Part shown: one piece after another, positions 26,111-63,234 of the stretch
Layout: every line of letters begins with the position of its first letter
Numbering within the stretch: position 1 is the stretch's first letter
Assembly (NCBI RefSeq): GCF_947495705.1
Contig: NZ_CANLZR010000005.1
Span: forward strand, 186,001 to 250,000
Direction: 5' to 3'
Origin: an uncultured Phycicoccus sp.
Lineage (GTDB): Bacteria; Actinomycetota; Actinomycetes; Actinomycetales; Dermatophilaceae
DNA: 64,000 nt
Translations under genes and position numbers: made by a program
The notes under the pieces: model-generated
What the model was told of the DNA's origin: nothing
Database searches by the model: none
What the model saw: the letters and a program-made list of their open reading frames with translations, nothing else

Positions 26111-27235
26111 ATGGTTGCCGCCGCACCACCCCCCGCCGCTCCCCCCGTCGAGCAGGTCATGGCCGTCGTCCACCGCTCGACGACGGCTCCGCACGGCTGG
26201 ACGACGTACCGGGTCCGCTCGGGCGACACCCTCGACGGCATCGCGGCCAGGTACCGCACCACCGTCGGCGCGCTCGTCGCCCGCAACCGCATCCGCACCC
26301 CGGGGCTCATCCACCCGGGCCACGTCCTCAGCGTCCCCCGTACGAGCGCGGCCAAGGCCAAGGCCAAGGCCGCGGCCCCGTCCCGGACCAGCGCCCGGAC
26401 CCACGTCGTGCGCAGCGGCGAGACGGTGAGCCACATCGCGGCCCGATACGGCGTCTCGGTGCCCAGCGTGCTCAAGGCGAACCGCCTCAAGGCGACGAGC
26501 TTCATCCACCCCGGTGACCGGCTCACGGTCCGGGCCGGCACGACGTCGACAGCGAAGGCCTCCCGCAGCGCCAAGCGCACCGCCGGGCCGTCGACGCGCA
26601 GCTACACCGTGCGCTCCGGCGACACCCTGAGCGGCATCGCCGCCCGCAACGGCACGACCGTCTCGCGGATCGCGTCGGCGAGCGGCATCGGGACGCGCTC
26701 GGTCCTGCGGGTCGGGCAGCGCCTGCGCCTGCCGGGCAAGAGCACCACGCATGCGGTCCCCAGCACCTTCGGCGGGGTCACCTACCCCGGATCGGTCGTC
26801 GCCGCGGCCCGGCGCAACCACGACACCCTCGCGAAGCGCTCGGTCCCGAGCCGCAGCGAGGTGAAGAAGATGGTGGCCCGCACGGCTCGCCGCCACGGGG
26901 TCGACCCCCGGCTGGCTCTCGCGGTGTCGTACCAGGAGTCGGGGTGGAACCAGCGGGCCGTGTCGCCGGCGAACGCCGTCGGCGCGATGCAGGTCATCCC
27001 GGCCGCCGGGGACTGGGCCTCCTCCCTCGTGGGCCGCAAGCTGAACCTCCTCGACGCCCAGGACAACGTCACCGCCGGGGTCGTCATGCTCCGGGCGCTC
27101 GGCCGCTCGACCTCGAGCACCGAGATGACGGTCGCCGCGTACTACCAGGGGCTGGCGTCGGTCCGCTCCCGCGGCCTGTACTCCGACACCAAGGTCTACG
27201 TCCGCAACATCATGCGGCTGCGCAGCACGATGTGA
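26111..27235 (+). CDS. LysM-repeat protein with C-terminal lytic transglycosylase domain
   Basis: Three LysM motifs (YRVRSGDTLDGIAARY, HVVRSGETVSHIAARY, YTVRSGDTLSGIAARN), SYQESGWNQRAVSPANAVGAMQVIP; start uncertain. Confidence 0.85.
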   Translation: MVAAAPPPAAPPVEQVMAVVHRSTTAPHGWTTYRVRSGDTLDGIAARYRTTVGALVARNRIRTPGLIHPGHVLSVPRTSAAKAKAKAAAPSRTSARTHVVRSGETVSHIAARYGVSVPSVLKANRLKATSFIHPGDRLTVRAGTTSTAKASRSAKRTAGPSTRSYTVRSGDTLSGIAARNGTTVSRIASASGIGTRSVLRVGQRLRLPGKSTTHAVPSTFGGVTYPGSVVAAARRNHDTLAKRSVPSRSEVKKMVARTARRHGVDPRLALAVSYQESGWNQRAVSPANAVGAMQVIPAAGDWASSLVGRKLNLLDAQDNVTAGVVMLRALGRSTSSTEMTVAAYYQGLASVRSRGLYSDTKVYVRNIMRLRSTM

Positions 27236-58555: not shown

Positions 58556-59449
58556 TCAGTTCCCTCCGCCGGTCGTGACGGTCTGGCCATCCATGAGCTG
58601 GCTCCTGTTGAGGGTGTTGTTCAGCAGCCCCGTCTGGCCCGCCGCGCGCAGCTCGGCCATGTGGGCGTCGTACTCGGCACGGGGGACGACCTTGACGTTG
58701 AAGAGCATCTGCGAGTGGTACGCCCCGCACAGCTCGGCGCACTTGCCCTTGAACTGGCCCTCCTGGGTGGGCACGACCTGGAACCGGTTGACCCGGCCCG
58801 GCATCATGTCCATCTTCTGGAGGAACGCGGGAATCCAGAACGAGTGGATGACGTCGCGCGAGGTGAGGACGAACTCGGTGCGCTCGTTCACCGGCAGGTA
58901 GAGCGTCGGGATGGTCTCCTCGGCGCCGGGCTTGCCGGTGAGGATCGCCTGGGTACCGACCTCGTGCACGTCGTCCTCGAGGTAGTTGAAGTCCCAGCTC
59001 CACTGCTTGCCGACCACGTTGACCGTGACGTCGGGCTCCTTGGAGGTGTCGATGAGGGCGGCCTCGTCGCGGGCGGTGTAGTAGAAGAACACGACGACCA
59101 TGAGCATCGGCACGACCGTGTACAGGATCTCGATCGGGATGTTGTACCGCAGCTGCACCGGCAGCTCGTTGTCGTCCTTGCGGCGGCGGTAGGCGACCAT
59201 GCACCAGACGGTGAGGCCGATGACGAGCAGGCCGACCGCGATGAGGGTGATCCACGCGCCGATCCACAGCGTGGTGACGCGGTCGCCCCCCTCGGTGACG
59301 GCGGGCGGGAGCCACCCGGTGGACGCGTCGCCGCGCAGGTTGCCGGCCGCGCAGCCGCCGAGGACCGTGGTCGTCAGTGCGCCGATGACGGCCCAGGCGC
59401 CGAGACGGCGACCTGGGCGACGGGGCGAGGAGAGGTCGTGCTGGCGCAC
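58556..59449 (-). CDS. ctaC: Cytochrome c oxidase subunit II
   Basis: Lipobox VLGGC; CuA motif [12 protein letters not shown]. Confidence 0.95.
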
Positions 59450-59527
59450 CGCTTCACCCTTCGGGGTCGAGTGGACGAACGGTGCAAACCCTACTGCACC
59501 GTGCTCGGAGACGGCAGTGCGGGGGGC

Positions 59528-59533
59528 TAGTGT
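59528..59533 (+). promoter_or_regulatory. Putative -10 (TAGTGT), 6 nt before GTG 59540
   Basis: TANNNT at leaderless spacing. Confidence 0.5.
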
Positions 59534-59539
59534 CGAAGG

Positions 59540-60727
59540 GTGGCGCACACCACGGTTCACCCCCCCTCAGACCCCCGCTCGGAGCCCCCGGCCGGCCCGT
59601 CCGCGGCCGGGGTTCTCGACGCCTCCAGGGGGCCGCTCCATCCGCTGGCCGCCCGGACGCTGGGCGCCGCCGTCGAGGCGGCCTGGGCCGACCCGACCCG
59701 GCTGCACGGCCCCGGCCGCCGGGCCCGGGCCCTCCTCGACACCGCCCGCGAGGTGCTCGCGGAGGCCGTCGGGGTCCGCCCCGACGAGCTCTCGGTGCAC
59801 GCCAGCCCCGAGGACGCCCTCGCGGTGGGCCTCGACGGGCTCCGGCACGCCCGCCGCCGGGTGGGCGGTCGGGTCGTCGCGTCCGCCGTGGAGCGCAGCG
59901 TCGTCCTCCTGCGCTGCGGTGACGACGAGCCCGTGCCGGTGAGCGCGCAGGGCCGGGTCGACCCCGACGCCTACCGGGCCGCGGTGGGCCGGCCCGAGGT
60001 GGCGGCGGCCGTCGTGCAGACGGCCAACGGCGAGGTCGGCACCCGCCAGCCGGTCGCCGAGCTGGCCTCGGCGGCCCGCGACGCGGGGGTGCCGCTGCTC
60101 CTGGACGCCACCGCCTCCCTCGGTCGCGACCCGCTGCCCTCCCACGGCGACGTCGTCGTCGCCGACGCCGCGGCGTTCGGCGGTCCGCCGGTCGGGCTGC
60201 TCGGGGTCCGCGCGGGCACCCGGTGGGGGCTGCCGGGCCCGCGCCGGGAGTCCGAGCAGGGCCGCACGCTCGCCGCCCCGTGGGTCCCGCTCGTCCTCGC
60301 CGCGGCCGAGGCCTGGCGCCAGACGTCGGCCGCCGCGTCCGCGGACGCCGCTGCGGCCGGCGTGCTCGTCGACCGGGTCCGCGCTGCGGCGGCGGGCGTC
60401 CCCGACGTCGAGGTCGTCGGCGACCCCCTCGACCGCCTCCCCCACGTCGTGACGTTCAGCGTGCTGTTCACCGACGGGGAGGTGCTCGTCGACGAGCTCG
60501 CGCGGCGCGGGGTGGCCGTGGCCTCCGGCTCCGCGTGCAGCTCGAGCGCCCTGCGCCCGAGCCACGTGCTCGCGGCCATGGGCGTGCTCACCCACGGCAA
60601 CGTGCGCGTGTCGCTGCCCCTGGAGTCGGTCTCCCCCGGCCGGGCCGACGACGTCGAGAGGCTCTGCGCGGTGCTGCCGGACGTGGTCGCCGACGTCCGG
60701 CGGCGGCTCGGGACGGCCGGGCTGTGA
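59540..60727 (+). CDS. Cysteine desulfurase / class-V aminotransferase homologue lacking the PLP lysine
   Basis: QTANGEVGTRQPV, LLLDATASLGR, VASGSACSSSALRPSHVLAAMG; HK motif replaced (ADAAAFGGP). Confidence 0.88.
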   Translation: MAHTTVHPPSDPRSEPPAGPSAAGVLDASRGPLHPLAARTLGAAVEAAWADPTRLHGPGRRARALLDTAREVLAEAVGVRPDELSVHASPEDALAVGLDGLRHARRRVGGRVVASAVERSVVLLRCGDDEPVPVSAQGRVDPDAYRAAVGRPEVAAAVVQTANGEVGTRQPVAELASAARDAGVPLLLDATASLGRDPLPSHGDVVVADAAAFGGPPVGLLGVRAGTRWGLPGPRRESEQGRTLAAPWVPLVLAAAEAWRQTSAAASADAAAAGVLVDRVRAAAAGVPDVEVVGDPLDRLPHVVTFSVLFTDGEVLVDELARRGVAVASGSACSSSALRPSHVLAAMGVLTHGNVRVSLPLESVSPGRADDVERLCAVLPDVVADVRRRLGTAGL

Positions 60728-60981
60728 GCGGGCCTGCCGTCGTGGACGCCCGCGGGACGCGGTGCCCCGTGCCGGTCATCCGGGTGGCACGGGCCAGTCG
60801 CGACCTCCCGGCCGGGACCACGCTCGTCCTCCTCGCCGACGACGAGGCGGCCCGCTCCGACGTCCCTGCGTGGGCCCGGATGCGGGGGCACGCCGTGACG
60901 CTGGAGCCCGAGGGCTCCTGGACCCGCTACTCGGTGCTGCTCGGGGGCGGCGCGGGCACGACGCCTGCCAGGTCCACCTGA
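60724..60981 (+). CDS. TusA-family sulfur carrier
   Basis: VVDARGTRCPVPVIRVARA; GTGA overlap with upstream gene. Confidence 0.88.
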   Translation: MSGPAVVDARGTRCPVPVIRVARASRDLPAGTTLVLLADDEAARSDVPAWARMRGHAVTLEPEGSWTRYSVLLGGGAGTTPARST

Positions 60982-62715: not shown

Positions 62716-63084
62716 TCAGCTGAAGCTGTCGCCGCAGGCGCAGGAGCTGCCGGCGTTGGGGTTGTCGATCGTGAACCCCTGCTTCTCGATGGTGTCGGAG
62801 AAGTCGATGGAGGCGCCCTGGAGGTAGGGGGCGCTCATCCGGTCGACGACGACCTCGACCCCGCCGAAGTCGCGCACGAGGTCACCGTCGAGGGTGCGCT
62901 CGTCGAAGTAGAGCTGGTAGATGAGCCCGGAGCAGCCGCCGGGCTGGACGCCGACGCGCAGCCGGAGGTCGTCACGACCCTCCTGCGCGAGCAGGGACGC
63001 GACCTTCGAGGCGGCCAGGTCGGTGAGCTCGACGCCGTGCGTCGCCGTCTCGGTGGCCTCGGTGGTCTGGAGCTGGTCGCTCAT
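62716..63084 (-). CDS. erpA: Iron-sulfur cluster insertion protein (ErpA/HesB)
   Basis: RVGVQPGGCSGLIYQLYFDE ... GSSCACGDSFS. Confidence 0.94.
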   Translation of the reverse strand: MSDQLQTTEATETATHGVELTDLAASKVASLLAQEGRDDLRLRVGVQPGGCSGLIYQLYFDERTLDGDLVRDFGGVEVVVDRMSAPYLQGASIDFSDTIEKQGFTIDNPNAGSSCACGDSFS

Positions 63085-63234
63085 CGGAGGACTCCTCAGT
63101 GCTTTCTGGAGAATGGCCGGAGGGCCTGTCGGTGCGTGCAACCGCACGCCGGCCCCCGGTGTTCCCGGACGCCTCCACTGTACGTCCCGGCCCCCCTCGA
63201 TCGTGCATCGACCGCACGATGGACGCCCGCGCCG

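Follow-up and report, generated by a model that had tools for sequence, protein, structure and literature searches.

The window analysed here, a 64,000-nucleotide stretch of DNA from an uncultured Phycicoccus sp., encodes a NifS/IscS-like protein that has lost the Schiff-base Lys and further PLP contacts of cysteine desulfurases, retains their Cys loop, evolves under purifying selection and is linked to, co-inherited with and in some relatives fused to the sulfur carrier TusA. We put at roughly 0.5 the probability that this is a conserved pseudo-cysteine desulfurase, in which the PLP chemistry has been lost and Cys333 acts as a PLP-free thiol or persulfide partner, or as a docking platform, for TusA. 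Such a role is the best reading because PLP ligands other than the Lys have also gone, in this protein and throughout its clade, and the Cys loop shows no variation. The features on which the argument draws are as follows (residue equivalents are those of E. coli IscS).

58556-59560, minus strand: divergent ctaC, for aa3 oxidase subunit II (NCBIfam NF050117, 334 bits, cutoff 250); given as the longest reading frame, the true start being probably internal, near 59446
59540-60727, plus strand: NifS/IscS-like protein without Lys, of class-V aminotransferase fold (395 aa, GTG start)
59894-59896, plus strand: Arg119, at the position of the PLP-stacking His104 (His invariant among Lys-containing orthologues)
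60104-60106, plus strand: Asp189, equivalent of the PLP-ring Asp180 (kept by every row of the window's order)
60164-60166, plus strand: Asp209, at the position of the PLP-phosphate ligand Ser203 (within the window's order 60 of 72 thinned rows have Asp; every Lys-containing row has Ser)
60170-60175, plus strand: Ala211-Ala212 (GCG GCG), aligned to His205-Lys206 of E. coli IscS
60536-60538, plus strand: Cys333 (TGC), equivalent of the catalytic/persulfide Cys328, in the SGSAC loop VASGSACSSSALRPSHV (kept in every Lys-less row)
60724-60981, plus strand: TusA-family protein of 85 aa, overlapping the NifS/IscS-like gene by GTGA (Pfam TusA, PF01206, 66 bits, cutoff 28.6)
60763-60765, plus strand: Cys14 of TusA, in CPVP (CPxP motif kept)
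62716-63147: erpA-type gene in the same neighbourhood

The cofactor site of the NifS/IscS-like protein

The 395-aa translation holds no Lys and matches the Pfam profile Aminotran_5 (PF00266) at 51.3 bits (cutoff 21.5), and Pfam, AlphaFold2 and Foldseek together identify a fold type I class-V aminotransferase domain. The fold is predicted to be intact (AlphaFold2 pLDDT 94.8, pTM 0.91), and the solved structures nearest to the model are IscS/NFS1 enzymes, the best Foldseek match being M. tuberculosis IscS (4isy, TM 0.84). Scores against the NCBIfam profiles lie below the equivalog cutoffs for both NifS (142 bits against 530.75) and IscS (73.6 bits against 643.2), as does that of a Lys-containing orthologue, L021 (279 bits). 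Since orthologues that keep the Schiff-base Lys contain just 1-6 Lys per protein in total, and 13 of them contain no other, the complete absence of Lys from the window protein partly reflects composition.

Residues were mapped onto E. coli IscS, the sequence of which was checked against PDB 1p3w. The PLP contacts gone from the window protein are Thr76, His104, Gln183, Ser203, His205 and Lys206, with Glu91 standing at the Thr76 position and Ala192 at that of Gln183, while Asn163 (Asn155), Asp189 (Asp180), Arg356 (Arg354) and Cys333 (Cys328) are retained; the equivalents of Asn155, Asp180 and Arg354 are invariant or nearly so across all groups aligned. The original prediction had described a Lys-free NifS/IscS homologue of 395 aa with Ala-Ala in place of His-Lys and with a recognisable Cys loop, PLP-ring Asp and NNExGtxQP-like segment; all of these were found, the last reading TANGEVGTRQP. 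Because the protein is without any Lys, a displaced Schiff-base Lys is ruled out.

In E. coli IscS the single mutations K206A, H104Q and Q183E each abolish activity (PMC9978102), and for this reason the window protein is almost certainly no cysteine desulfurase; judged by its residues, it is very probably a non-PLP homologue. Binding of PLP would also fit poorly with an Asp at the position of Ser203, the residue that touches the phosphate of the cofactor. We therefore give only the slimmest of chances to a PLP-dependent desulfurase still working without its Lys. The retention of the Asn155, Asp180, Arg354 and Cys equivalents would suit such an enzyme, and the K206A mutant of E. coli IscS has some PLP left (PMC9978102); by analogy the window protein may have residual cofactor binding. 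However, it lacks all three of the residues whose single substitution inactivates IscS, together with Thr76, Ser203 and His205, and carries the Asp at the phosphate site.

Distribution, ancestry and selection

Among the 80 named loci obtained by scanning GTDB genomes, the nearest relatives are from Phycicoccus, Terrabacter and other Dermatophilaceae, and further searches were made at the family, order, class and phylum levels. The gene is carried by 81 of 150 genomes of the family and, at E 1e-35, by 75 of 297 genomes of the window's order (Micrococcales according to the named loci) and 146 of 247 genomes of the class. Among the 205 proteins extracted and aligned, 112 (counting that of the window) have a residue other than Lys in the Schiff-base column: Ser, Asp, Ala, Thr, Met, Gly, Val or Glu. 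All 112 retain the Cys, which is missing from just one aligned row, the EgtE-like paralogue L209. Not one of the 96 sequences from the window's order, its own among them, has the Schiff-base Lys, which is present in 76 of 76 Lys-containing orthologues. A codon error at 60170-60175, raised as a concern with the original prediction, is ruled out by this clade-wide loss.

The SxHK columns were left out of the tree building. Rows of the order fall into a single clade, with an SH-aLRT value of 80 in a tree of 112 rows and with bootstrap/SH-aLRT values of 97/94 in a smaller, careful one of 38. In most Actinomycetes among the approximately 200 relatives compared, the ctaC-divergent gene retains the Schiff-base Lys. 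Parsimony places 6 changes on the larger tree for loss of this residue, at least 3 of them forced by well-supported branches, with long branches blurring the count; the separate Lys-less lineages include families f40, f44, f46 and f47 and the single rows L233 and L243. The last of these, from the same phylum outside the class, is a more distant NifS homologue with SSDMLCGPKG for SxHKxxGPKG (Met for Lys) and an intact Cys loop. Two diverged Lys-less copies, L165 and L166, occur in the small genome G296, one with an odd Cys loop, GCGCTC. Genome G145 has a second locus (C1:1564708-1564959) with 58% identity to residues 285-368 only, the Cys-loop part, which is possibly a partial duplicate.

At 106 of the 111 Lys-less loci, and at 72 of the Lys-containing kind, ctaC lies upstream in divergent orientation, and pfkB and erpA lie downstream in most loci of either kind; this common placement identifies the Lys-less and Lys-containing genes as positional orthologues. 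The equivalents of Lys206, Ser203 and His104 are conserved in 100% of the 76 Lys-containing orthologues and that of Thr76 in 95%. Among Lys-less rows of the window's order the Lys is at 0%, Ser203 at 7-8% (mostly Asp instead) and His104 at 57% or 11%, depending on which of two sub-clades is taken, while the Cys, Asp180 and Arg354 equivalents are at 100%. When the 74 columns conserved at ≥93% in Lys-containing orthologues were considered, 11 proved to be lost in the order's Lys-less clade, including 4 of the 6 PLP contacts of the set (Thr76, His104, Ser203 and Lys206; one-sided p=0.004, kinship ignored), and those kept include the Cys loop, Asn155, Asp180 and Arg354. Asp209 is a new, clade-specific conserved residue.

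Selection on the gene was compared by the Nei-Gojobori method in pairs at 80-97% identity. dN/dS is 0.167 for 55 Lys-less pairs and 0.171 for 362 Lys-containing pairs, indicating that constraint is not relaxed where the Lys is missing, and across the clade, whose members share 40-77% identity with the window protein, the Cys loop does not vary. It is accordingly very improbable that the gene is decaying towards loss and still readable by chance. Its absence from many genomes of the order would fit decay, as would its presence as two separate pieces in G141 of the same genus (C1:1046330-1047461, a recent break or an assembly error), but the selection data largely refute this explanation, and the predicted intact fold, the invariant Cys loop and the newly conserved Asp209 also speak against it. 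The original prediction had asked whether orthologues retain the His-Lys pair, in which case this copy might be simply a decayed paralogue. The pair is indeed retained outside the order, but a decayed paralogue is ruled out all the same: the gene is a positional orthologue, Lys-less order-wide and under normal purifying selection, and its Cys loop does not vary.

TusA, ctaC and the proposed role

The overlapping TusA, like its neighbour, contains no Lys, and a Lys-free TusA is found in 54 of 96 Lys-less against 21 of 76 Lys-containing loci. Its score of 40.8 bits is below the NCBIfam equivalog cutoff of 78 for sulfurtransferase TusA. TusA lies directly downstream in 96 of 111 Lys-less loci, and nearly all of these adjacent proteins keep the Cys. 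In four Lys-less genomes of genus g20 (G020, G067, G094 and G113) the NifS-like protein and TusA are fused in frame, and a NifS-TusA fusion occurs separately in the Lys-containing L177. Within the family, all 81 carriers of the gene have some TusA, adjacent in 72, whereas a TusA of any kind occurs in just 11 of the 69 non-carriers (p about 1e-30, kinship ignored). Taken by itself, the linkage could be a legacy of the Lys-containing ancestor. The gene is kept without an adjacent TusA in genus g38 (8 genomes) and in parts of families f9, f10 and f47, and the function of the NifS-like protein may therefore be wider than TusA. A second TusA-family gene of the window's genome, L203 (G000:C10, about 26624-26824), stands beside a DsrE-like gene and is unrelated to ctaC.

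We propose that, in the lineage of the window's order, a ctaC-linked Actinomycete NifS would have shed first of all its Schiff-base Lys, along with the PLP-stacking His and the phosphate ligands, and would have kept its fold, its mobile Cys loop and its partner TusA after the PLP chemistry was gone. With the known route from cysteine presumably closed, the protein would abstract no sulfur itself. Instead, Cys333 might receive persulfide made elsewhere, by SufS or an IscS-like paralogue, or derived from sulfide or persulfide, and might pass it to TusA, or might simply hold or dock TusA; that Cys333 carries sulfur at all, which way the sulfur moves and what supplies it are points that we infer. 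The original prediction of a non-PLP persulfide or thiol carrier, or of a scaffold for TusA, thus holds for the non-PLP homologue, given the lost PLP ligands and the invariant Cys loop, while the carrier or scaffold role is at the level of inference. A more specific version of this proposal, which we regard as tentative and less likely than not, is a cofactor-free relay, a desulfurase turned persulfide shuttle that would feed TusA from sulfide, persulfide or another enzyme, order-wide and in several further Actinomycetota lineages, with the Asp closing the PLP-phosphate site.

The window's genome also encodes a SufS with SGHK, in its suf cluster, and an IscS-like paralogue with AHK. Lys-less fold-type-I subunits of active heterodimers are known, SPTLC1 being one, and with this precedent and a Lys-bearing paralogue in the same genome, the NifS-like protein might be a non-catalytic subunit that pairs with the paralogue or with SufS and tunes or redirects sulfur to TusA. 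We consider this quite unlikely. Family genomes that lack the NifS-like gene have an IscS-like paralogue too, so no specific pairing is seen, and the paralogue of the window's own genome shares just 34% identity with the window protein.

The original prediction had drawn attention to the Lys-free TusA with its GTGA overlap and CPxP motif, to the divergence from ctaC and to the proximity of erpA, which all agree with the features listed above; from the latter two it had suggested a role in oxidase metal-centre maturation. For this last suggestion we find no support. A dedicated aa3 oxidase maturation factor, acting at the CuA or haem site, would fit the divergent ctaC, but that arrangement is common to Lys-less and Lys-containing forms, the ctaC-side location is older than the loss of Lys, and most sampled genomes of the order are without the gene. 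To our knowledge, moreover, TusA is not an oxidase factor, and we give this explanation very little credence. A perfect 22-bp dyad, CGGTGCAAACCCTACTGCACCG, lies at 59480-59501 between ctaC and the NifS-like gene and occurs once in the genome. We rejected a regulatory palindrome shared with ctaC, since the dyad is not kept by relatives; as these retain mostly CAAACnCTACTGCAC instead, the element is probably a conserved ctaC promoter element.

Comparison with known systems

A desulfurase homologue has thus repeatedly shed its cofactor chemistry while the persulfide loop and the sulfur-carrier partner remain under selection, which makes the functions of the Cys loop testable separately from PLP catalysis. 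There is also a warning for annotation: in these bacteria a gene near ctaC that is labelled as a cysteine desulfurase very probably does not encode such an enzyme, and the window protein should not be classed as one. The closest comparison by position is with the ctaC-linked NifS-TusA of other Actinomycetes, such as Microbispora, Nonomuraea and Kribbella, which has the same place between ctaC and pfkB/erpA and the same TusA partner; unlike the window protein, their NifS reads SAHKWGGP, retaining the Schiff-base Lys, and has the remaining PLP contacts as well. The E. coli IscS-TusA complex (PDB 3lvj) is similar in fold (TM 0.83), Cys loop and TusA partner, but E. coli IscS is an active PLP enzyme with Lys206, His104, Gln183 and Ser203. 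Our literature search, which left subscription journals largely outside its reach, found no bacterial Lys-less cysteine desulfurase, no ctaC/TusA link and no Streptomyces counterpart, and the earlier descriptions it did find concern archaeal IscS only.

In Archaeoglobus fulgidus IscS, a precedent that the original prediction had not named, Asp replaces the Lys, and PMC7585200 (citing Marinoni 2012 and Pagnier 2014) describes the protein as inactive as a desulfurase, with its Cys ligating a [2Fe-2S] cluster on IscU. By analogy, the Cys loop of the window protein might ligate a cluster on SufU, ErpA or another scaffold, an Fe-S or metal role that we judge unlikely. It would be in keeping with erpA in the same neighbourhood and with A. 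fulgidus IscS being the best solved-structure match of the Lys-less L148. Nevertheless, the erpA linkage is common to Lys-containing forms, and the usual neighbour is the sulfur carrier TusA: a Pfam scan of the neighbouring genes identified ctaC, TusA, aat, PfkB, ErpA-type and glycerate kinase genes and no IscU gene. Comparison with the A. fulgidus IscS2 structures (PDB 4eb5, 4eb7 and 4hvk; D199K mutant, 4r5f) reveals a shared NifS/IscS fold and Cys loop and the same absence of the Schiff-base Lys and of the His205 and Gln183 equivalents; the Asp at the Lys site recurs in 84% of one Lys-less sub-clade here. The archaeal protein, which works with IscU, keeps Thr76, His104 and Ser203 and has lost Arg354, whereas the opposite pattern holds in the window clade, where the first three are largely lost, Arg354 is kept and the usual neighbour is TusA. 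Methanosarcina acetivorans IscS1 is another homologue for which absence of the catalytic Lys has been reported (PMC7585200); it differs from the window protein in being archaeal and paired with IscU1. A Lys-less IscS is therefore already known from archaea, and our analysis extends the phenomenon to Bacteria, where the partner is TusA and not IscU, the loss is fixed throughout an order and has recurred in other lineages, and the contacts that have gone are different ones.
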